From the IMG/VR virus record IMGVR_UViG_3300034068_000367, positions 1 through 32,977 of that record: a stretch of DNA of 32,977 nt; one strand, written 5' to 3'. Positions 1,872 through 31,019 of the stretch are shown piece by piece. A model generated the notes under the pieces. The model did not search any database. It worked only from the letters and a program-made list of their open reading frames with translations, and was not told the DNA's origin. How positions within the stretch are numbered: position 1 is the first letter of the stretch; the number at the start of each line of letters is the position of its first letter. The DNA comes from a virus. The position numbers and the translations under genes are program-made.

Positions 1872-3032
1872 TTAAAATTTACTCTTAATTCTTAATTTTG
1901 AAGAATCAACACCATTGATAGCTCTTACTTTAAATCCATTCACGTTAATTTCACCAGCAGACGTTTGTCTAGGTTCTGTTGAAATGTTGTTTGATTTAGC
2001 TAACATCTCTTTAATAGCGTCAGCTTTACCTTGTTCGTAAAAATGGTTTGCAATACTGTCAGTGTTTTCAGCAGCATACATTGCTTTATGATACCCAGTC
2101 ATATCTGTTACTTCACCTTTTTCGTTTAAGAACTTCTTAAGTAGGTTAGTAATGTTTGATTGTTTATCTGCAACAGCGTCAGTATTTTGTAGATTAAACC
2201 TGAATGTTTTTCCACCTGCGTTGAAATCAAAACCTTTGAAATCTTGTGTAAAAAACTTTTTGGTATTATCTTTAAATGCTGAATGCATTTGCTCAACTGA
2301 TTGTTGATCCTCTTTGTATCGATTGAAAAAATCAATTGCTTTTTGTTGATCTGGGTTTACATTAGACTTTAATTTAATTTCATCATAATATTTACTCTTA
2401 AGATCCTCCAGAAAGCTTTTGGCTTTGCCAACCTCTTCTTTGAAAGCGATACGTTTCTTTTTAATTTCTCGCTCGTCGTCTTCTTCTTCATCATACGAGA
2501 ATGTTTCTTCCATGTGAAAGTCAATCTCGTCTAAATCTAAATGTGGTTTTGTTTTCTTGTAATATTCTTTTAATAGAACTTCTGGATTCAACTTAGAATA
2601 ATCCGTATTTAAACGAGTATAATCTTCAATGTCTCCGCCTGTTTCTTCCATAAAAGTAATTAACTTTTCAATATTCTCTGGTAATGGTTTACCTGATACT
2701 TTTAAATCATTAATTGCTTTTTCTGCTTCTGCTTCAAGTTCTTTTGCTTCTTCAGTAGTTTCTGTAATATTAACTACAACTACTTCTTTCTCATCAACCG
2801 GTTCGGTAATGATTTTTTGTTCGGTGTTTCCTTCGACCACTTCTTGCAATCCCATTTCGGGTTGTCCTGGCTGTAACACGCCTTCATCTGTTGTTTGCTC
2901 TTGAACGGCATCGCCTATTGGTTTAGTTGTTAAATCTACTTTTGCAACAGACTGAGCTGATACATGTTTAATAGTAGGAACTTTAGCTCTTTTAATTTTA
3001 AAGTCACCCTCTTGTTTAATTTGTTCTGCCAT
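1872..3032 (-). CDS. Capsid scaffolding protein
   Basis: This 386-aa, very acidic and largely helical protein lies between portal and capsid, the usual place of a scaffold. The N-terminal 100 residues are low-complexity and rich in Glu, Val and Thr (TETTEEAKELEAEAEKAIN). A charged segment around residues 180-195 reads YDEEEDDEREIKKKR. The C-terminal part is helical (MYAAENTDSIANHFYEQGK, ADAIKEMLAKSN) and ends in a basic tail, SSKLRIKSKF, suited to binding the inside of the shell. Scaffolds evolve quickly, so the call rests on context and composition. No protease motif is visible in it. Confidence 0.75.
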   Translation of the reverse strand: MAEQIKQEGDFKIKRAKVPTIKHVSAQSVAKVDLTTKPIGDAVQEQTTDEGVLQPGQPEMGLQEVVEGNTEQKIITEPVDEKEVVVVNITETTEEAKELEAEAEKAINDLKVSGKPLPENIEKLITFMEETGGDIEDYTRLNTDYSKLNPEVLLKEYYKKTKPHLDLDEIDFHMEETFSYDEEEDDEREIKKKRIAFKEEVGKAKSFLEDLKSKYYDEIKLKSNVNPDQQKAIDFFNRYKEDQQSVEQMHSAFKDNTKKFFTQDFKGFDFNAGGKTFRFNLQNTDAVADKQSNITNLLKKFLNEKGEVTDMTGYHKAMYAAENTDSIANHFYEQGKADAIKEMLAKSNNISTEPRQTSAGEINVNGFKVRAINGVDSSKLRIKSKF

Positions 3033-3052
3033 GATAAAATATTATATAATTA
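3033..3052 (-). promoter_or_regulatory. AT-rich leader, copy 2 of 2
   Basis: These are the same 20 nt as at 278-297, ending directly at the ATG of the scaffold gene. Because this copy lies just after the portal stop inside the late operon, a boosting promoter or a translation enhancer for an abundant virion protein is likely. Confidence 0.5.
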
Positions 3053-3063
3053 GTTGTGTTGTT

Positions 3064-5481
3064 CTATTTAGGAGAGAACTGCTCCAAACCAAATCCACCA
3101 AGATTGTCAAACCCTGCTGATTCAAAATCTTTTGGTAATGTATTGTTTTGTCTTTGTTCAATCAATTCAGATTGTTGTGTGGCTTGTAATTTTGTTCTTT
3201 GATCTTTACGATCTTCCATTTTATTAAGTTTCTCTTGCGCTTGAGCAACTTGCATTTGAGCTAATTGCATTTGATAACTAAACTCTTCTGCCATTAATTG
3301 TTTCTTTATCAACGCTTCTTGTTGCATCTTTTGAATCTCAAAACTTAGTTTAGATTGCTCTAATTGTATTTTCTGTTCTGTAATTGCTTGTTGCTTTTGT
3401 ACTTCAGCCATAGCTGTTTCCTGCGCTAACTGAGCGTTTGCTTGAGCTTGTGCTTGTATGTTTGCTTTTTGATTTTCTTGATCCCTTTCTTGTTTCTTTT
3501 TTCTTTTATATTTAAGAGACTGATTAGCTAACTTAATATTTTTAATTTGTCTTAAGTCAATAGCATCTTCAAGATCAATACCACCTGATTGTAAAGCAAC
3601 TTGTATGTTTTGTTCTAATTGTGCTCTTTCTTCTTCATCTGGTTCTAATTCTAAGAAAATACCAAAGTCATGTAAGTTTAAGTTTTGTAATTCTTTTAAT
3701 GTTTCTACCGATGATACCGATATACTTTGCATTAATGAACTTGCTGTTAATGGGAAGTTCAATGAATCAGCTACTCTTCTTGAAATGTTTTCACATATAC
3801 GTAGAGTTAAATATAAACTCGATTGTAATATGTGCCTTGTTGCAGTGTTTGAATTTGCTGCTGCCATTTTTTGTAAACCAACCAAAGCATCTCTGTCTGG
3901 CGTACTAGCGTCTCTTGCTTCATTTAATCCGGTTACATCACGTATCATTTGTAAGTAATACTGATATGTTTGTATTAATGATTGTATCTTGCCACTACCT
4001 GATGAAGTTTGTAATTCCTGTATTGGAATTTTAGCTCTGTTCATATCTCCGTCTTGCGTCATTGATCTACCAACGATACTACCTGTTTGGAAATACATAT
4101 TTAATGCCTCTGCCGGATTATAATTTGTACCATTACCTAAATCAACTTCGGCTAGACCATCAACATCGACAAATACTCCATCCGGAACTAATCTAGCTAA
4201 TACTTGTTGTATTTTTAAATGTGTTAGCTGGATCATATCTGCAAACCCTGTTATACGACTTACTAATGATTCAATTCTTCCTTTATACATTCTTGGTGCA
4301 CAAATAGTATAATTCATTTGTACTCTTGTTGTATCAGCAAATGGTCTCGTCATATTCTCTGCTAGTTTCCATTCTAACATTTTTTCGTGACCTAATATTT
4401 TTGCTCCTGAATATAAAACTTCAATACTTCTTGATACTTTGCTAAATGTATCGCTTTCTGGTGGATTAAAATCATCCGTTTTTTCTAATGCTTTTTCTAA
4501 ACCAACATCTGTTTGTTTAATTTTAAATACTTGATTAGAAAATGTTTTGTATTCAAAATACAACACCTGTACATTAGAAGTGTCATAATCTTGTCCGTAA
4601 TAGTTACGTGTATAATTTACATCACCTGGATATTTTTCAATCTCTTCTAAATCAGCTTTTGTTAAATGTGGAAATTGCATTTTAACCTCTTCTAACGTAA
4701 CAGATCTAACTTCACCAACATAATATATGTCTTCAAAGTTTGGATCCTCTGTGTAAGAATAAACAAGGTTAGCAGGATCAACATAATCTATTGTTACTCC
4801 TTCTGCTTTGTTCCAATTTGTTTTTGATGCCGCAATACCCAAAACAACTAAATCGTAATTTAATCTTTTGTTTATTAACGGATATTTATTGTTATCTAAT
4901 ATTTGACTTATTACTTCTTCTTCAGCTATTTCAATTTCTTGTTTGTAACTTAATTGAAGTCTAATTTCTAATTCTTCTTTATCCTCTGGTAAATTAGCAG
5001 GATCCATAGTATTATATAGATTTGCTCCTAACGTTCCTTGTATTTCATTTAAAAGATCTTTGGCCATCATGTCTTCCAGTATTGCAGAAGCATAATTTGT
5101 TTTCTTTTTAATTGAATCTGGATCTTGTGCGTATGCTTTAATATCGTAGTTCTTGCTAGATATACCGTTAACAACGATGTCAACAAACTTAGGTATAACA
5201 GGAACAGGTTTCCAGTCAAGATTCAAATAAGATAAATCACCATTGATTGATAATTCATCTTTATACTTTTGAACTGATTGCTCACCTCTAGCATATAATC
5301 TTAATCTGTGGAAGTTCTGCCAGTTGGATCCCCATCTGTTTCCAGCACCACCAACTCTATCACCTCTAAACCATTCGTTTTCAATAGCTCTACCTACTTT
5401 AGCTCCGTACTCGTAGCTTTGTTTCTCTGAATCTGGTACTACCTGACTAGGAAAAGAACTATTATTATTAGTATAAACCAT
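3064..5481 (-). CDS. Portal protein
   Basis: An 805-aa portal, the ring through which DNA enters the head. The N-terminus has NWQNFHRLRLYARGEQSVQ, then PVIPKFVDIVVNGISSKNYD, the pattern seen in the long portals of crAss-like and related podoviruses. The middle holds DYVDPANLVYSYTEDPNFED and the RDVTGLNEARDASTPDRDAL segment typical of portals. From about residue 660 the protein is a Gln/Ala/Lys-rich coiled coil (AQAQANAQLAQETAMAEVQ) that probably forms the barrel. The gene starts 3 nt after the terminase stop and so is co-translated with it. The length is well above the usual 450-600 aa. Confidence 0.88.
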   Translation of the reverse strand: MVYTNNNSSFPSQVVPDSEKQSYEYGAKVGRAIENEWFRGDRVGGAGNRWGSNWQNFHRLRLYARGEQSVQKYKDELSINGDLSYLNLDWKPVPVIPKFVDIVVNGISSKNYDIKAYAQDPDSIKKKTNYASAILEDMMAKDLLNEIQGTLGANLYNTMDPANLPEDKEELEIRLQLSYKQEIEIAEEEVISQILDNNKYPLINKRLNYDLVVLGIAASKTNWNKAEGVTIDYVDPANLVYSYTEDPNFEDIYYVGEVRSVTLEEVKMQFPHLTKADLEEIEKYPGDVNYTRNYYGQDYDTSNVQVLYFEYKTFSNQVFKIKQTDVGLEKALEKTDDFNPPESDTFSKVSRSIEVLYSGAKILGHEKMLEWKLAENMTRPFADTTRVQMNYTICAPRMYKGRIESLVSRITGFADMIQLTHLKIQQVLARLVPDGVFVDVDGLAEVDLGNGTNYNPAEALNMYFQTGSIVGRSMTQDGDMNRAKIPIQELQTSSGSGKIQSLIQTYQYYLQMIRDVTGLNEARDASTPDRDALVGLQKMAAANSNTATRHILQSSLYLTLRICENISRRVADSLNFPLTASSLMQSISVSSVETLKELQNLNLHDFGIFLELEPDEEERAQLEQNIQVALQSGGIDLEDAIDLRQIKNIKLANQSLKYKRKKKQERDQENQKANIQAQAQANAQLAQETAMAEVQKQQAITEQKIQLEQSKLSFEIQKMQQEALIKKQLMAEEFSYQMQLAQMQVAQAQEKLNKMEDRKDQRTKLQATQQSELIEQRQNNTLPKDFESAGFDNLGGFGLEQFSPK

Positions 5482-11422: not shown

Positions 11423-11865
11423 CGTGTTTTATCTTTATTAACGTTCTTTATTGCTGATTGTAAAACCGTGTCTGTATATGTTTTACCTCTCATTATAGTA
11501 TTTCTTCTTTCGCTTGTCGGTATATCTTCGTCTCCAATCATAATACGGTACATTCTACTTATTAGTTGTTTGCACTTGAAAGAGACTTTATATATATTGT
11601 ATTTTTGAGTTGTATGGTTACGTTTTCTCCAAACCACTATCCACCCTTCTTTTAACAACCTGTCCCAGCGCATCTTATCCCAACTATATGTATAAGTACC
11701 TACCTCATAATCATGTCTAGTAAAGAAATCTAAACAATCAAAGTATATTAACAATTCTAAATCCGCATCAGCAAGACCGTTATTTCTACAAGCCCATCTC
11801 CTAATTATTCTGTAATGTTTTAATAAACCAGATTCACGTAGGTCACTAGCTTCTAACCGTTTCAT
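11419..11865 (-). CDS. Winged-helix-like protein, unknown role
   Basis: A 148-aa basic protein. The central part reads like a winged helix: ADLELLIYFDCLDFFTRHDY (helices), WDKMRWDRLLKEGWIVVWRK (recognition helix and first wing strand), RNHTTQKYNIYKVSFKCKQL (wing and final helix). It could bind DNA as a late regulator or packaging partner. Its start overlaps GroES by 4 nt, and the next gene overlaps its end by 4 nt, so it is made together with the chaperonins. Confidence 0.6.
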   Translation of the reverse strand: MKRLEASDLRESGLLKHYRIIRRWACRNNGLADADLELLIYFDCLDFFTRHDYEVGTYTYSWDKMRWDRLLKEGWIVVWRKRNHTTQKYNIYKVSFKCKQLISRMYRIMIGDEDIPTSERRNTIMRGKTYTDTVLQSAIKNVNKDKTR

Positions 11866-12125
11866 AATACAACAACTATATCTTGTAGTTTTATAACCGT
11901 ATATTTATTACCTTCAAATTCAATAGTATGACCAGCGTGTTTATCATAATATATTTCGTCACCTTCTTTAATGACTTTTATTTCATCACTGATCGATACA
12001 ATTATTGCTTCTTTATATCTAATATCTTCACTATCTTTTTCTTTTAATATAAGACCGTTTTTTGTTTCTTTTGTAGCTTTTACCTTCTTAGGCAAAATAA
12101 CTATATTATTACCTATTGCCTTCAT
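11862..12125 (-). CDS. groES: GroES co-chaperonin
   Basis: An 87-aa cpn10 protein. NNIVILPKKVKATKETKNG is the first strand and the mobile loop that docks on GroEL, DIRYKEAIIVSISDE the central strand, KEGDEIYYDKHAGHTIEF the G-D turn and roof region, and YTVIKLQDIVVVL the closing strand. It is slightly shorter than the bacterial form (about 97 aa). The gene lies after groEL and overlaps it by 17 nt, the reverse of the bacterial groES-groEL order. It should cap the phage or host GroEL ring. Confidence 0.9.
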   Translation of the reverse strand: MKAIGNNIVILPKKVKATKETKNGLILKEKDSEDIRYKEAIIVSISDEIKVIKEGDEIYYDKHAGHTIEFEGNKYTVIKLQDIVVVL

Positions 12126-13662
12126 TAATTCTAAGATTATTGATTACACAATCTGTTGATAAAATAGTTGTAGCAACTGAAGAAGCATTCTTTAATGCAG
12201 ACTTTGTTACAAGTAATGGATCAATAATACCAGCTTTAATCATATTAACTGTTTCACCAGTTATAACATTTAAACCTAAACCTTCTTCTTGTGGTAATGG
12301 TATTTCAATTCCTGCATTTAATAATATTGTATGATAAGGAGCTTTGATTGCGTCTAGTAACACCCATTCCCCTTCTGTTAATCCACCAATATACATTGCG
12401 GCATTTAATAAAGCAATTCCACCACCAGGTACAATGCCTTCTTTAATAGCTGCTTTTGTTGCACAGATTGCATCTTCAACTCTATCTGCTTTTTCTTTTA
12501 ATTCTATATCAGATCCAGCACCTACTTTTACAACAGCTACTTTGCCTGATAATCTTGCTAATCTTCTTTCCAATCTAATTACCTCAGCTGGATTCTTAGC
12601 AGTTTCTAATTGTTTTTTTACTGTATCAATAAGATCCAATACTTCTTGTGAATATTCTCCAACTTGAATAATTGTTTCCGCATCGGTTGTTACAGCTTTA
12701 ATACATGATCCTAAATGTTCTGGAGTTATAAGATCCATATCATCTCCAAGATCTTCGTTAATAATTGTAGCTCCAGTTAATAATGCTAAATCATCTAATG
12801 TATCTTTTTTATTAACACCGTACGTTGGCGCGTTAATAACGTTTGCTTTTAAATTACCTTTAACTTTGTTCATTGCAATTACTGAAAGAACTTGTGGTTC
12901 CATATCCGCAATAATAAGTAATGGTTTTTTTATTTTCATACAGTGTTCTAAAACACCTTGTATTTGTCTAATATTTTCAACTGGTGATTCAATGATAAGA
13001 ACCAAAGCATTATCTAACTCTGCTGCTTTTTTTGAAGCATTAGTTACAAAATGTGAATTAACTAATCCTTTATCATATTGAATACCATCAATAACTTCTA
13101 TTTCTGTAGTATTAAGATCTGACATTTCCATCATTACAATACCATTGTCACCAGCGGCTCTAAAAGCATCTGCAATAACCTTACCTAATTCAGGATCATT
13201 ATTAACAGATATAGTAGCTACGTTATCAATCATATCTCCTGATACTGGTATTGCAACACTCTCTAAATATTTAATTACTTTTTCTGTAGCATTCTCAATA
13301 CCTTCTTTTAATTCTCTGCTACTAGTACCTTTTGGAACTTTATAAGCATGATTCAAAATAGAATGCGTCAATACTGTAGCGGTTGTTGTGCCGTCTCCAG
13401 CTTCTTTAACTGTTTTTCTTGCAGCTTCCTTAAGTAACGTTGCACCCATATTTTCTACTGGATCTAATAGTATAATACTATCTGCTACTGTTACACCATC
13501 TTTTGTAATTACTGGTCTACCAGCTCCATCTTCTAATATTACACATTTACCACTAGCACCAAGTGTTGAACTTACGGCTCTAGTTAATTTAGTAATACCT
13601 TCGAATATCTTATTCTTTGCATCTTCGCCAAAGTTAAGATTCTTTACGATTGCTTCTGTCAT
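12109..13662 (-). CDS. groEL: GroEL chaperonin
   Basis: A 517-aa, full-length chaperonin subunit. ATP-site motifs are intact: ITKDGVTVA (52-60), GDGTTTATVL (89-98, with the catalytic-region Asp), RVEDAICATKAA and EGIVPGGGIALL. The apical domain includes LLIIADMEPQVLSVIAMNK. The protein ends in NNLRINEGNR and lacks the Gly-Gly-Met tail of bacterial GroEL (548 aa in E. coli), so the inner floor of the chamber differs. It probably folds capsid, fibre or other phage proteins late in infection. An AT-rich leader of about 60 nt without a gene precedes it. Confidence 0.95.
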   Translation of the reverse strand: MTEAIVKNLNFGEDAKNKIFEGITKLTRAVSSTLGASGKCVILEDGAGRPVITKDGVTVADSIILLDPVENMGATLLKEAARKTVKEAGDGTTTATVLTHSILNHAYKVPKGTSSRELKEGIENATEKVIKYLESVAIPVSGDMIDNVATISVNNDPELGKVIADAFRAAGDNGIVMMEMSDLNTTEIEVIDGIQYDKGLVNSHFVTNASKKAAELDNALVLIIESPVENIRQIQGVLEHCMKIKKPLLIIADMEPQVLSVIAMNKVKGNLKANVINAPTYGVNKKDTLDDLALLTGATIINEDLGDDMDLITPEHLGSCIKAVTTDAETIIQVGEYSQEVLDLIDTVKKQLETAKNPAEVIRLERRLARLSGKVAVVKVGAGSDIELKEKADRVEDAICATKAAIKEGIVPGGGIALLNAAMYIGGLTEGEWVLLDAIKAPYHTILLNAGIEIPLPQEEGLGLNVITGETVNMIKAGIIDPLLVTKSALKNASSVATTILSTDCVINNLRINEGNR

Positions 13663-23640: not shown

Positions 23641-23673
23641 TTACAAGATGAACACGAGAGTTGTTTGATAATA
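23641..23673 (+). promoter_or_regulatory. Phage promoter motif, copy 7
   Basis: TTACA, 7 nt, CACGA, 7 nt, TTGATAATA, followed by ATAATGTAACTAA. It lies 24 nt before the gene at 23698. Confidence 0.8.
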
Positions 23674-23697
23674 ATAATGTAACTAAAAAATAATAAT

Positions 23698-23967
23698 ATG
23701 AGAGTAGTAGAGAGTAGAATACAATATTGGAGTGATGATTATGACCGTAGAGTTTTAATTATTAAAGTGGCTAATACAATTGTGGGTATTGATTTCATGC
23801 AAGGTGATGAACCGTATGACTTTAAGGGTAGGAATGGTGACCCAACTATATTAGAGGTTTACAATGCGGCTAACCCCTATTTATCTGGAGATACCGAAAA
23901 CGAATGTGTGAATCAAGCGATTAATATATGGTTTGATTTGAGTGAAGGAGGTATTGAGTTTAGATAA
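23698..23967 (+). CDS. Unknown 89-aa protein
   Basis: An acidic small protein with SRIQYWSDDYDRRVLIIKVA, then MQGDEPYDFKGRNGDP and ENECVNQAINIWFDLSEGG. It reads as a compact alpha/beta fold. It stands alone between promoter copies 7 and 8, so it is its own unit. Family unknown. Confidence 0.75.
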   Translation: MRVVESRIQYWSDDYDRRVLIIKVANTIVGIDFMQGDEPYDFKGRNGDPTILEVYNAANPYLSGDTENECVNQAINIWFDLSEGGIEFR

Positions 23968-24006: not shown

Positions 24007-24039
24007 ATACAAAGCAAATACGATGGTAAAATGATAATA
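24007..24039 (+). promoter_or_regulatory. Phage promoter motif, copy 8
   Basis: ATACA, 7 nt, TACGA, 7 nt, ATGATAATA, followed by ATAATGTAACTAA. It lies 24 nt before the gene at 24064. Confidence 0.8.
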
Positions 24040-24063
24040 ATAATGTAACTAAATACAAATAAT

Positions 24064-24820: not shown

Positions 24821-25160
24821 TAAGATAACAACGGAATCGATCAATGCATTCCTAAACGGTAAAGACTACCACAAAGATAATATGTCCGTAACAAAGTTAG
24901 ATGATGGCGTAACTTATATGCGCTTATGGGGTAACCCTATCGCTAAAATGAAATCAGACGGTACAATATATATCTCTACTTGTGGTTGGCACACTAGAAC
25001 GACGTTAATGCGCTTAAACGGTTTGCTATACGCACTTGGTTCCACGTCACGATTACGAATGAAAAAGTTTAAACCGTATTTAAACCACCCAAGTATGGGT
25101 TTATTACCTTGGACTGATGACATTATGGTGAGATACAAACAAGACACGAAACTAATTTGA
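24804..25160 (+). CDS. Conserved phage protein of unknown function (118 aa)
   Basis: The protein contains ITTESINAFLNGKDYHKDN, VTYMRLWGNPIAKM, TIYISTCGWHTRTTLMRLNG and LNHPSMGLLPW. I recall similar small proteins (start of the type I-T..S-I-x-A-F, then S-T-C-G-W-x-T-x-T-T-x-x-R-L) from many aquatic phages, always without a known role. The start could also be the Met at 24813. Promoter copy 9 lies within its last codons. Confidence 0.75.
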   Translation: MNVMYNKITTESINAFLNGKDYHKDNMSVTKLDDGVTYMRLWGNPIAKMKSDGTIYISTCGWHTRTTLMRLNGLLYALGSTSRLRMKKFKPYLNHPSMGLLPWTDDIMVRYKQDTKLI

Positions 25161-25165
25161 TAATA
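25133..25165 (+). promoter_or_regulatory. Phage promoter motif, copy 9 (overlaps a gene end)
   Basis: ATACA, 7 nt, CACGA, 7 nt, TTGATAATA, followed by TAAATGTAACTAA. It overlaps the 3' end of the upstream coding region and uses its TGA stop as part of the -10-like box. Confidence 0.8.
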
Positions 25166-25188
25166 TAAATGTAACTAAAACAAACAAC

Positions 25189-25301: not shown

Positions 25302-25565
25302 ATGACTAGAATAAACGAATTAAACAAAACAGACTTTAGAGAATTTGTATCAGATATGATTGATACCGATGGCTTAGAATGGGCTCTAAATAGAGTATAT
25401 GAAAATGCAACACTTTCTGAATCTATTGCATTCCACCGCACAAAACGTGGCCACGAATATTGGTCTAACATTTACCATAATGGTTATAAAGTTGAGATGA
25501 CATTAAAAGAAATTGAAGAAAAATTAAATTTAACTCCCAATTCATTAAAGGTAATTCCATACTAA
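25302..25565 (+). CDS. Unknown 87-aa protein
   Basis: A helical, acidic protein: TRINELNKTDFREFVSDMID, then EWALNRVYENATLSESIAFH and YWSNIYHNGYKVEMTLKEIE. No motif recognised. It shares the transcript of the 33-aa gene, and its stop lies against promoter copy 10. Confidence 0.75.
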   Translation: MTRINELNKTDFREFVSDMIDTDGLEWALNRVYENATLSESIAFHRTKRGHEYWSNIYHNGYKVEMTLKEIEEKLNLTPNSLKVIPY

Positions 25566-25597
25566 TACAAAACAAACACGAATAACAATTGATAATA
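25565..25597 (+). promoter_or_regulatory. Phage promoter motif, copy 10
   Basis: ATACA, 7 nt, CACGA, 7 nt, TTGATAATA, followed by TAAATGTAACTAA. It begins on the last base of the upstream stop codon. Confidence 0.8.
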
Positions 25598-25623
25598 TAA
25601 ATGTAACTAATAAATAATATACT

Positions 25624-25800
25624 ATGAATACAATTAAATTTTTATCTGGTAACAGATTATTACTAAACAAAGTACCATACAAAGGTTATACTGTTGGAAA
25701 CTTACCACCATCATTTGCATTTATATACGATGCCGATAACGAAACTGAAGGCGTCACATCATTTTTTAATCACAAAGGTTTAACTTATATAAAAGAATAG
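25624..25800 (+). CDS. Unknown 58-aa protein
   Basis: ATG at 25624, TAG at 25798-25800. It reads MNTIKFLSGNRLLLNKVPYK, then GYTVGNLPPSFAFIYDADNE, then TEGVTSFFNHKGLTYIKE. A small beta-rich fold. It begins 26 nt after promoter copy 10, and the next gene begins 3 nt after its stop. Confidence 0.65.
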   Translation: MNTIKFLSGNRLLLNKVPYKGYTVGNLPPSFAFIYDADNETEGVTSFFNHKGLTYIKE

Positions 25801-26241: not shown

Positions 26242-26391
26242 ATGAGTAACAGAGACAAAGCAATGCTTGAGTGTGACAAATTCCACTTATGGCTACGAGA
26301 TAAAGTACAAAGTGTACATTATGCTAACAACGAAAAAATGGCAGAAGCATACGCTAGAGTTTATAAAAATATAATGTTACATACAAACTAA
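26242..26391 (+). CDS. Unknown 49-aa protein
   Basis: ATG at 26242, TAA at 26389-26391. It reads MSNRDKAMLECDKFHLWLRD, then KVQSVHYANNEKMAEAYARV, then YKNIMLHTN. Mostly helical. It follows its neighbour by 2 nt, and its last 11 nt belong to promoter copy 11. Confidence 0.65.
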   Translation: MSNRDKAMLECDKFHLWLRDKVQSVHYANNEKMAEAYARVYKNIMLHTN

Positions 26392-26413
26392 ACACGGACA
26401 ATAATTGATAATA
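26381..26413 (+). promoter_or_regulatory. Phage promoter motif, copy 11 (start codon 8 nt downstream)
   Basis: ATACA, 7 nt, CACGG, 7 nt, TTGATAATA. The ATG is at 26421, so the mRNA has almost no leader. Confidence 0.8.
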
Positions 26414-26420
26414 ATAATAT

Positions 26421-26624
26421 ATGACAGCACTACAAGACAAACTAAGAGACAAAGCATTTTCTAAAATAAGTAATATCACAGTAAAAATAAGAGATATAGA
26501 AAATGATAAAAAATATCATCTATCTATATTAGAAGATGAGCAACTAGACCTTATGATTAGAGGAGCAAAGAGAGATTTAGAGTTATGGAATTACATAGCT
26601 GAATTAGTAGAAAAAGATATTTAA
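26421..26624 (+). CDS. Small helical protein (67 aa)
   Basis: A helical, charged protein: MTALQDKLRDKAFSKISNIT, then LSILEDEQLDLMIRGAKRDL and WNYIAELVEKDI. It starts 8 nt after a promoter motif, a sign of near-leaderless translation. Unknown function. Confidence 0.7.
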   Translation: MTALQDKLRDKAFSKISNITVKIRDIENDKKYHLSILEDEQLDLMIRGAKRDLELWNYIAELVEKDI

Positions 26625-27016: not shown

Positions 27017-27469
27017 ATGAACTTAAGAAACTTATTAAAAGAAATTAATGATAACGGTGGTGTATCATACAATATTACAACAGGTGATTATAATCCTACT
27101 GATGGTTACATGGTATCATTACCAGGTTATGAAACAACATTATTTCCAGATGATCTTAGCGAACAAGTAATAAAAGATTATATTCTTAAGAACATAGAAT
27201 TTTTAGCAAATGGTAGTGATTATTATCTTGGTGCATGGATTGAAAACAATAGAATATACTTAGATATATCTGTAAAAATTAACGATCTATATGAAGCATG
27301 CTATTCAGGTATTGTTAATGAACAATTAGCAATCTATGATAATGCAAATGCGGTTGCTATACACCTGCCAACACCTCAAAAGTCTGGCACATTTACACAA
27401 CAAGCAACATATAATAAAGAAGCAGCAAAAGCTATTGCAATAAATTATAATTATGTAGTAAATAGATAA
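27017..27469 (+). CDS. Conserved phage protein, unknown function (150 aa)
   Basis: An acidic alpha/beta protein: NLLKEINDNGGVSYNITTGD, DGYMVSLPGYETTLFPDDLS, YYLGAWIENNRIYLDISVKI, and NEQLAIYDNANAVAIHLPT at the end. The pattern (W-x-E-N-x-x-I-Y-L-D, Q-L-A-I-Y-D) recalls small phage proteins of unknown role. It is the last protein gene before the large RNA region. Confidence 0.75.
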   Translation: MNLRNLLKEINDNGGVSYNITTGDYNPTDGYMVSLPGYETTLFPDDLSEQVIKDYILKNIEFLANGSDYYLGAWIENNRIYLDISVKINDLYEACYSGIVNEQLAIYDNANAVAIHLPTPQKSGTFTQQATYNKEAAKAIAINYNYVVNR

Positions 27470-27479
27470 TAATATACAC

Positions 27480-28140
27480 GGTGCATTATGAACGGTTCGA
27501 GTCCGTTAAAATAATTGGAGCATATATAAGTCTCGGTGTTATCGTGGGAAACAGCACGTAACGCTGAATGTGGGATTGGGGTAACCCCGGTCGCGACTCA
27601 GGTAGCAGTGAGTTCGTTAAATAAGAACTGTTAAAACGTTAGTTACTGGGGTTGCGTGAAAATTAACCAAGTTTAGCGACTGGTTGCAACTGAAGCGTGC
27701 ATATAAAGAAAATAACCGGTTTGCACACTAACAAAAGAACTAAGTACTGGGCTATGATGGCATGTTACGACCGACGGGTTTTGGGGTTCGATTCCCCTTT
27801 TAGTTCCAAATAGGTTAAACATTGAATACCTTTGTAAGTTAGAGAAGTCATTAAATAGGAAAGATACCGTTGACTTAGTTGGTATATGCTAATTTACATA
27901 AAGATACTATCAGTAATGGTAGATGTGTTGTTCCCTTGAGAAAGGAATGAGTTAACAAATAGGATTAAAGAGGTAGATCTTTCCTACAACACAAATGAGT
28001 TCTCAGCAAGTAGTTAATCAGATGTGAGTTCAATAATCCTCCCAGTTACACATCGAAAGGAGGTAATTAACTATGTGACCCTACTAGAAGTTTTATACTA
28101 AAAATCACTTGTGATGGTTTAGATAAAGAATAGAGGGTGC
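27480..28140 (+). ncRNA. Large structured non-coding RNA (GOLLD/ROOL-like candidate)
   Basis: About 660 nt without a believable gene and visibly richer in G and C than its flanks. Helices I can draw: 27485-27515 (ATTAT, AACGG / CCGTT, ATAAT), 27538-27562 (GTTA-CGTG / CACG-TAAC), 27574-27592 (8 bp), 27594-27616 (7 bp), GTTAGT / ACTAAC (27638 with 27727), 27833-27842 with 27889-27898 (10 bp) enclosing an H-type pseudoknot, TGTGTTGT / ACAACACA (27924-27931 with 27986-27993), a GAGA tetraloop hairpin (27934-27945), and TAGTTAAT-GATGTG with CACATC-ATTAACTA (28011 to 28073). A tRNA-like fold sits inside it. It ends 12 nt before promoter copy 12. Its own promoter is unclear. GOLLD and ROOL RNAs are large phage RNAs often found with tRNAs; membership is not proven. 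Confidence 0.65.
27737..27808 (+). ncRNA. tRNA-like fold inside the large RNA
   Basis: GAACTAAG (27737-27744) pairs with TTTAGTTC (27799-27806), a full acceptor helix with one G-U, followed by CA so that a CCA end is present. A T arm with GGGG, TTCGATT, CCCC (27783-27797) precedes it, and T8 and A9 are in place. The 39 nt between (length right for D and anticodon arms) do not fold into a standard anticodon stem. It may be a decayed tRNA or a tRNA mimic used by the large RNA. Confidence 0.5.
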
Positions 28141-28152
28141 TAAATTAATAAC

Positions 28153-28185
28153 ATACAAAACAAACACGAATATTAATTGATAATA
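28153..28185 (+). promoter_or_regulatory. Phage promoter motif, copy 12
   Basis: ATACA, 7 nt, CACGA, 7 nt, TTGATAATA, followed by ATAATGTAACTAA. It lies just after the large RNA and 25 nt before the gene at 28211. Confidence 0.8.
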
Positions 28186-28210
28186 ATAATGTAACTAAAA
28201 CAAATTAACT

Positions 28211-28651
28211 ATGAATATATTTTATTTAGACAGAGATCCTGTTAAAGCAGCAAGAATGCACCACTCGAAGCATGTTGTCAAAATGGTATTAGAAGCTGCA
28301 CAATTACTTTGTACAGCGCATCATTTATCCGGTAATCCAGATGATGTACCATATAAGAAGACACACATGAATCATCCATCAGCAGTATGGGTACGATCAT
28401 CACGAGCTAATTACTTATGGTGTTATGAATATATGTTAGCATTAGGTTCTGAATATACACGTCGTTATAAAAAGCACCACTTAACTATTGCAAAGTGTCG
28501 TGAAGTATTATCTAAAGTACCACATGCTATACATGCTGAAGACTTTTGCGATCCACCTCAATGTATGCCAGACGAATACAAAATGGCTGATGCAGTTGAT
28601 GGTTATAAAAAATATTACGAAATTGGTAAAGCTCACTTAAAAGATAAATAA
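28211..28651 (+). CDS. Conserved phage protein with KHVVKM motif (146 aa)
   Basis: The N-terminus FYLDRDPVKAARMHHSKHVV, KMVLEAAQLLCTAHH is a widespread block in aquatic phages (Y-L-D-x-D-P, then K-H-V-V-K-M and E-x-A-Q-L-L-x-T-A-H). Later comes HPSAVWVRSSRANYLWCYEY and a His/Cys-rich stretch, EDFCDPPQCMPDEYKMAD. The many His and Cys residues suggest metal binding. Some databases label this family as a pyrimidine dimer glycosylase relative, but I see no clear catalytic signature, so the role stays open. Confidence 0.75.
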   Translation: MNIFYLDRDPVKAARMHHSKHVVKMVLEAAQLLCTAHHLSGNPDDVPYKKTHMNHPSAVWVRSSRANYLWCYEYMLALGSEYTRRYKKHHLTIAKCREVLSKVPHAIHAEDFCDPPQCMPDEYKMADAVDGYKKYYEIGKAHLKDK

Positions 28652-30557: not shown

Positions 30558-30747
30558 CTTTTTAAAATTCACTATTACATGGATAGCCAGTAACTTGTCT
30601 ATACCATTCTGGGTAGTTGGGCATGTACATTTAACTGTAAATATATATGAAGACATACACGAGATAATAGCATCATTTGGAATGAATATAATTGTTGCTA
30701 TAGGATTTATAATTGAATACAAAACAAATACGAACAATAAACGATAA
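30535..30747 (+). CDS. Two-helix membrane protein (70 aa)
   Basis: Hydrophobic segments FTITWIASNLSIPFWVVG (about 12-29) and FGMNIIVAIGFIIEY (about 48-62), a basic start and a basic end (KTNTNNKR). The C-terminal codons are also promoter copy 13. Overlap of 23 nt with the upstream gene. Two helices suit a holin-like or host-membrane protein. Confidence 0.65.
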   Translation: MLTRDLINFLKFTITWIASNLSIPFWVVGHVHLTVNIYEDIHEIIASFGMNIIVAIGFIIEYKTNTNNKR

Positions 30748-30749
30748 TA
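30717..30749 (+). promoter_or_regulatory. Phage promoter motif, copy 13 (start codon 4 nt downstream)
   Basis: ATACA, 7 nt, TACGA, 7 nt, ACGATAATA. The ATG is at 30753, the shortest distance of all, so the transcript is likely leaderless. The motif lies inside the end of the 70-aa gene. Confidence 0.75.
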
Positions 30750-30752
30750 TAT

Positions 30753-31019
30753 ATGAGACTAAACGTAAGAATAACACAAGAAGATATTAATAAAATAGCT
30801 GATACAGTTGTTGAAAAGATATTGCGTAAACAAATAGAATATGATTATGCTTATGATCAAGTTCATCAACAGAATTTAACATACGATATGGTATTACAAC
30901 AAATGGTTGGTTTACAACTATTATTATCAGAGTATATAACAACAGAGGCTTATGAAAAAGCAGAGCTTACAAAAACAAAAATACAACAACTTAAAGTAAT
31001 ATTAGATAAATTAAAATGA
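30753..31019 (+). CDS. Small helical protein (88 aa)
   Basis: Helical: RITQEDINKIADTVVEKILR, YDYAYDQVHQQNLTYDMVLQ, then a coiled-coil-like end EYITTEAYEKAELTKTKIQQ. It starts 4 nt after a promoter motif. Function unknown. Confidence 0.7.
   Translation: MRLNVRITQEDINKIADTVVEKILRKQIEYDYAYDQVHQQNLTYDMVLQQMVGLQLLLSEYITTEAYEKAELTKTKIQQLKVILDKLK

Follow-up and report, generated by a model that had tools for sequence, protein, structure and literature searches.

A tRNA-like RNA and an ornate RNA family outside Rfam 15 as neighboring predicted units in a probable Bacteroidota phage

Introduction

GOLLD and ROOL lie near tRNA islands and form cages made of RNA only; ROOL is an ornate, pseudoknotted RNA of phages and prophages, and GOLLD bound ribosomes in pull-downs and has tRNAs sometimes nearby or inside its linkers (PMC12286853). 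A role for host tRNases in shaping the tRNAs carried by phages has been proposed (PMC10264068).

We analyzed 32,977 nucleotides of viral DNA (IMG/VR record IMGVR_UViG_3300034068_000367, positions 1 to 32,977; hereafter the window), which probably derive from the genome of a phage whose host group is the Bacteroidota. An earlier note, made from the sequence alone, had read positions 27480-28140 as one ornate non-coding RNA of 660 nt with a tRNA-like fold. The structured character of the stretch was confirmed, its unity as a single RNA was not.

Results

From the stop codon at 27469 to the start codon at 28211 no open reading frame reaches 60 aa, in agreement with the gene-free stretch described earlier, and the G+C content reached 0.48 in the RNA stretch vs. 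about 0.27 in the flanking genes. The whole stretch folded at -169 kcal/mol, as compared to -153 kcal/mol in dinucleotide shuffles (z -3.2; 0 of 20 shuffles as good), and the separate halves were weakly better than shuffles (z -1.6 for unit B and -1.4 for unit A, defined below). Since the energies of the halves are weak alone (z about -1.5), the proof of structure is comparative. At gathering score the window gave no match in Rfam 15, and at E up to 10 the region 27400-28250 returned no GOLLD, ROOL or group I intron, the tmRNA model matching over a T arm of 15 nt (E 0.004); across the window and the loci with unit B, gathering and permissive thresholds yielded tRNA, tmRNA, chance matches and nothing else. 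ARAGORN reported no tRNA in the tRNA-like region of the window, and neither sigma-70 promoters nor intrinsic terminators were in excess around the locus.

Positions 28150-28230, outside the RNA, hold one of seven copies of an intergenic repeat in the window (the others at 25565-25630, 24007-24060, 25133-25184, 23642-23701, 26379-26421 and 30717-30763). This AT-rich repeat, AACATACAAAACAAACACGAATATTAATTGATAATAATAATGTAAC, precedes many small genes and is probably a promoter/translation-start unit of the phage. In many arrays the upstream gene is followed by the string TTGCTATACAC, which is at about 27355 in the window and, in L145-L155, at the 5' end of unit A; it occurs also within the window's upstream ORF, and might serve as a promoter or as a recombination joint. 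Downstream of the RNA, the gene at 28211-28651 encodes a protein of phrog_624 that weakly resembles pyrimidine dimer DNA glycosylase. On the minus strand, a GroEL-type chaperonin (Cpn60, E 1e-57) is encoded at 12109-13662, followed by a short ORF (11862-12125) that is GroES-like by eye.

Comparison with relatives, namely loci encoding kin of the window's downstream protein, established that the region comprises at least two separate units on the plus strand, both predicted to be structured RNAs:

27481..27811, plus strand: unit A, a tandem of small structured cassettes with the tRNA-like RNA (TLS) as its 3' end; the whole unit is common to L010
27812..28143, plus strand: unit B, a free-standing ornate RNA of ~330 nt, of a phage family outside Rfam 15

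Locus L010 carries 27450-27811 and then resumes at 28137, passing directly to the promoter-like repeat, without 27812-28136. The equivalent of 27812-28149 is placed in L015 upstream of element M (see below) and TLS, the order opposite to the window, and L124 has the order M-TLS-B as in the window. Unit B occurs alone (2911-3360) in Cellulophaga phage phi14:2 (KC821624.1), a cultured member of the Crassvirales; it is present in one close relative of the window's phage and absent in 18 others, and L010, L012 and L024 keep the downstream gene with B missing. As A and B are found apart and in reversed order, the region is not one RNA: the border falls at 27811/27812, and the tRNA-like part and the ornate RNA, previously placed in one molecule, belong to different units (A vs. 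B).

Unit A contains the following elements:

27491..27507, plus strand: cassette e1, a T-arm-like hairpin (AACGG-TTCGAGT-CCGTT), found by sequence in the window and L010 only
27543..27569, plus strand: cassette e2 (CGTGGGAAACAGCACGTAACGCTGAAT), in 7 records with differing surroundings
27572..27593, plus strand: cassette e3, a GNRA-type hairpin (GGG-GTAA-CCC), also in L143 and L152, absent in L010
27594..27632, plus strand: cassette e4, also in L143, L149, L154 and L010
27638..27732, plus strand: element M, a closed domain of 95 nt with two long-range helices and a hairpin
27737..27808, plus strand: TLS, with acceptor stem GAACTAA/TTAGTTC and T arm at 27783-27797; 12 distinct variants

Cassette combinations in unit A vary among relatives, which differ 5' of TLS in their sets drawn from e1-e4, M and at least three others. 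The covariation proposed as a check on the helices was found in M, where 96.7% of cells were paired over 15 distinct copies and 24 cells were doubly changed vs. 7.6 in shuffles. A first search pattern for M gave 34 matches, most of which look like chance and lie outside RNA loci; true M is confined to the phage group of the window and its near relatives, and L143 and L150 are without it.

The acceptor strands of TLS pair 27737-27743 with 27800-27806, the linker CCGACGGGTT is conserved, and in the alignment of variants one variable arm of very different lengths replaces the D and anticodon arms. The complete acceptor and T arm described in the earlier note recurred in 15 further contigs (most of 48-67 kb) and in L124 and L051; the acceptor is nearly invariant, so that its pairing rests mainly on complementarity and on one variant (L124). 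TLS lacks the cloverleaf of a canonical tRNA, with its D and anticodon arms, and ARAGORN did not call it.

Genes resembling tRNA-Leu adjoin M or B in L011, L014, L019, L072, L083, L110, L128, L137 and L138. They have acceptor, D and T arms (AGTCAGGTGGCGGAA...CAGGTTCGAATCCTGTCCTGACT), the anticodon arm being replaced by unrelated and often much enlarged middles, and those of L013, L014, L103 and L133 have an additional hairpin in their D loop.

The core of unit B consists of six helices (P1, P3-P7) and a pseudoknot of the P5 loop, within ends AGGTTAAACA...GGGTGCTAA, and about 150 of its positions are highly conserved:

27812..27831, plus strand: P1, the 5' hairpin of B, stem AGGT/ACCT, with the conserved loop TAAACATTGA
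27907..27922, plus strand: P3, hairpin CTATC/GGTAG, 5 of 5 pairs changed on both sides
27924..27993, plus strand: P4, TGTGTTG (27924-27930) with CAACACA (27987-27993), 99.7% paired, enclosing P5 and a variable slot
27931-27934 and 27944-27947, plus strand: P5, TTCC with GGAA, 5 of 5 pairs changed on both sides
27937..28005, plus strand: PK1, P5 loop TGAGAA (27937-27942) with TTCTCA (28000-28005), 99.2% of cells pairing
28010..28074, plus strand: P6, GTAGTTA (28010-28016) with TAACTAT (28068-28074), carrying a pseudoknot cassette (CCTCC/GGAGG)
28078..28143, plus strand: P7, ACCC (28078-28081) with GGGT (28135-28138), with a variable slot and the conserved 3' end GGGTGCTAA

The window has P1 and P3-P7 in this order together with the loop TAAACATTGA and the 3' end GGGTGCTAA, the features that define the family, and 60 copies (median 340 nt) were recovered with all elements in the same order. 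The stems of P1 change in step around the fixed loop (AGTCGT/ACGACT, ACTCAT/GTGAGT, TGGGT/ACCCA). Over 41 copies, 91% of cells in the proposed helices pair, and covariation, the check suggested for related phages, was evident in 126 doubly changed cells vs. 38 +/- 5 in shuffles and 31-48 with slid partners. The search seed spans the 3' strands of P4 and PK1 and the 5' strand of P6, strands whose invariance therefore owes something to the way copies were picked, and P1, P3, P5 and P7 lie outside it; for PK1, nearly invariant and with its 3' strand in the seed, covariation cannot be shown and the evidence is complementarity only.

A covariance model of B (R1) matched the window at 27883-28144 (77.5 bits, E 3.6e-14), the window being one of its training sequences, and it matched 33 of 34 held-out loci, found with a shorter seed and outside model building; in the non-matching locus, L182, the seed sits near the end of the retrieved DNA. 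The 31 distinct held-out rows gave 109 doubly changed cells vs. 30 in shuffles, in an alignment fitted to R1 and thus leaning towards it, and all 7 pairs of P6 vary on both sides in this set. The helices contain 62 G.U vs. 29 A.C cells, an excess that points to the plus strand as the RNA. A coding signal, which would have spoken against an RNA, did not appear: none of the 60 copies has a reading frame open throughout, and their lengths fall in all three classes modulo 3. Unit B is almost certainly a real RNA family, so far unlisted, and a literature search by context and loop sequence among open-licence papers returned nothing relevant.

The two pseudoknots that had been predicted fared differently. 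The crossing helices GATGTG/CACATC and CCTCC/GGAGG (28021-28063), of which the latter is the pseudoknot of the window's P6 cassette, stood at 18 vs. 9.7 in shuffles (p about 0.02) and were seen again in L134. The complementary letters of the H-type pseudoknot (AAGTCA/TGACTT and ATACC/GGTAT, 27845-27885) are in place but do not rise above shuffles (p about 0.15), and the P2 slot that holds this putative fold is not conserved. That slots P2, P5, P6 and P7 generally hold pseudoknots was not supported, and the idea that B slots regularly contain T-arm-like hairpins was discarded (1 of 201).

Four slots of B (after P1, and inside P4, P6 and P7) vary in sequence and length, and individual cassettes turn up again in different combinations. 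In P6 the window's cassette has 94% identity with the one of L134, in P7 89% with the one of L051; L134 and L090 have a P7 cassette 100% identical over 52 nt, and L133 has P2 and P6 in common with L103 and P7 with L099 (100%, 52 nt). Cassettes were also met in another slot, as the P2 cassette of L051 resembles the P6 cassette of L120 (93% over 46 nt) and the P7 cassette of L105 that in P2 of L130. These identities establish, at the level of sequence comparison, that B cassettes are exchanged between phages and sometimes between slots, a pattern in which common descent with loss may have a share besides recombination.

Two further small elements were noticed. Element N (TAGCTAAGCTGTGTAAAGC...GAAGCTA, about 47 nt; L051 1667-1701, minus strand, and 20 other contigs) lies often directly 5' of B and also elsewhere, and is apparently a further small RNA family. 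A 90-nt cassette (TGTATAATCACTGGGGACTAT...TATTATACA; L151 5403-5492 and 11 other contigs, 87-98% identity) sits in arrays as well as 5' of B, in phages that otherwise differ.

The 25-nt core pattern of B was found in 69 IMG/VR contigs and an 18-nt pattern in at least 119. A scan of 84,980 genomes of bacteria and archaea for the core gave no match, nor did one of plasmids for its consensus. Three candidate carriers were rejected: a Prevotella Lak megaphage and Pseudoalteromonas HM1, to which the covariance model gave 12.9 and 14.7 bits, and a Dulem virus, which had no covariance-model match. Among 24 records searched whole, 22 had one match, one had two overlapping matches and one, fetched for another pattern, had none; in L095 and L081 there are hints of another copy nearby. 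The window's terminase family, phrog_6681, is encoded in 28 of 44 records (43 of them B carriers) and is missing from most records of 150-306 kb; occurring with and without it, B crosses phage lineages.

A tmRNA scoring above the Rfam cut-off was present in 11 phages with B, and in seven of them it follows B on the same strand at a distance of up to about 300 nt (42 nt in G012, 59 nt in G007 and 66 nt in G015). Phage phi14:2 has a tmRNA-like gene 0.7 kb downstream of B (46 bits, cut-off 47), and in L178, L196 and L198 B is inside arrays of 17-22 tRNA genes. Other 3' neighbors are tRNA-like genes, a second B copy, M and protein genes. The Bacteroidota -7 motif is weakly enriched upstream of B (7 of 57 vs. 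3.4; 9 of 200 random sets as high), and the search for this motif and for sigma-70 recognized no promoter there.

In the record of phi14:2, three tiny reverse-strand proteins (gp007-gp009; KC821624.1 3106-3431) are annotated over or beside B, which was thus overlooked in annotation. The tmRNA-like gene of this phage (4031-4502, tag GSSVQKLAMVA) lacks an annotation, and small ORFs overlap it.

Discussion

The earlier interpretation, a large structured phage RNA with a tRNA-like fold, was supported as regards the kind of RNA and not as regards the single molecule or the membership in GOLLD/ROOL. In our judgement the chances stand about even for a combined account by analogy with those RNAs. To what comparison shows, a plus-strand non-coding RNA locus with unit A as a set of domains ending in TLS and unit B as a separate RNA, it adds a trans-acting role of a GOLLD/ROOL-like kind for B. 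Both units would be transcribed with the tRNA/tmRNA island of the phage during infection, tRNA processing enzymes would release TLS, and B would then act in trans as a stable folded RNA, as proposed for GOLLD and ROOL. Its constant core might be the contact surface for other B copies or for the translation machinery, and its outer arms might vary freely or under host selection.

The main rival, which we consider unlikely, would see TLS and B as decoys that bait or sponge host RNases, anticodon nucleases or RNA-guided defences, the arms being the product of an arms race. Cassettes exchanged around fixed cores agree with it, as do the retention of the tRNA top half in TLS, with unrelated arms in place of the anticodon side, and the shaping of phage tRNAs by host tRNases that has been proposed (PMC10264068); a decoy, however, could do without a core of about 150 strongly conserved positions, B mostly comes as a single copy, and no defence target was pinpointed. 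A cis-acting leader (riboswitch, attenuator or processing element for the downstream gene) would fit the frequent position of B directly 5' of a same-strand gene, but is improbable given that the 3' neighbor changes each time (tmRNA, tRNA-like genes, second B, M, unrelated ORFs), that 18 of 19 relatives are without B, and that L010, L012 and L024 have the downstream gene without it.

One RNA of 660 nt and of GOLLD/ROOL type, as the earlier note proposed, appears quite improbable: the gene-free structured stretch is continuous, tRNAs are sometimes within GOLLD linkers (PMC12286853) and L124 repeats the M-TLS-B order, yet the halves occur separately and in opposite order and neither GOLLD nor ROOL matched. 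We give very little credit to a self-splicing or self-cleaving ribozyme, such as a group I intron that has degenerated within a tRNA region; despite the compact pseudoknotted core, the conserved ends and the clean presence or absence in a tRNA region, no group I, group II or ribozyme family matched in the window region (E up to 10) or at other B loci (E up to 1), and B lies between genes, interrupting none, with no flanking exon pair found. Equally remote is a DNA-level element whose hairpins would be recombination or packaging sites, the RNA being incidental: cassettes do move between slots and loci, but pairing is kept while the helix sequence changes, G.U cells exceed A.C cells (62 vs. 29), and single-stranded loops are fixed.

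We put forward tentatively, as a possibility, a combinatorial RNA system in which a pool of small cassettes would be reshuffled by recombination onto fixed scaffolds (B, TLS and tmRNA-side arrays). If true, each phage would bear a different arm set on a constant core, a principle of RNA evolution and host interaction that we found undescribed for phage RNAs such as GOLLD/ROOL.

Unit B adds a family of more than 100 phage contigs, not in Rfam 15, to the few large structured phage RNAs on record, such as GOLLD and ROOL. The cultured carrier phi14:2 makes expression, deletion and structure directly testable, and the link to tRNA arrays and tmRNA, together with a constant core and swapped arms, offers a handle on the role of ornate phage RNAs.

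Comparison with known systems

TLS has the T arm in common with tmRNA (15 nt, E 0.004) and also resembles it in having no anticodon arm; it differs in that its acceptor strands, only about 60 nt apart, are too close for a tag reading frame and a chain of pseudoknots. A tmRNA, which had been listed for checking, is accordingly not what the window holds: 15 nt of 374 model positions match, and ARAGORN found none. For B, tmRNA is a separate gene and its tandem neighbor in several phages. With respect to phage tRNA genes, TLS keeps the acceptor and T arms, whereas one variable arm takes the place of the D and anticodon arms. Nor did a group I intron, also on the list, emerge at E up to 10, and the genes flanking B are both intact.

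Membership of GOLLD or ROOL was not borne out, no Rfam covariance-model match being obtained in the window or in 20 + 15 related loci. GOLLD, which forms a 14-mer nanocage, and B are both large ornate phage RNAs near tRNA islands, with a conserved core and a less conserved part; many GOLLD members exceed 800 nt, whereas B measures about 330-340 nt and its variable parts are four separate slots with exchanged cassettes. ROOL, highly expressed and forming a closed nanocage, is like B ornate, pseudoknotted and near tRNA islands, but it measures 659 nt in the studied case, B being shorter, with no sequence or covariance-model match between them, and it is known from phages and prophages, whereas the B core pattern was not found in bacterial genomes. 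The location near tRNA islands that marks GOLLD holds for B, which lies in tRNA arrays or beside tmRNA or tRNA-like genes in many phages and next to TLS in the window. The suggestions of a kind of RNA that adjoins tRNAs and of a possible new class were well placed. Many B copies have a protein gene 3' and not a tRNA, which we count against our best reading, along with the smaller size of B and its unrelated sequence, the weak promoter signal, and a folding energy that by itself does not distinguish B (z -1.6). That reading, drawn from sequence comparison, is that B is a new phage RNA family of the same kind as the ornate phage RNAs and not homologous to GOLLD or ROOL, which would, like them, act in trans.
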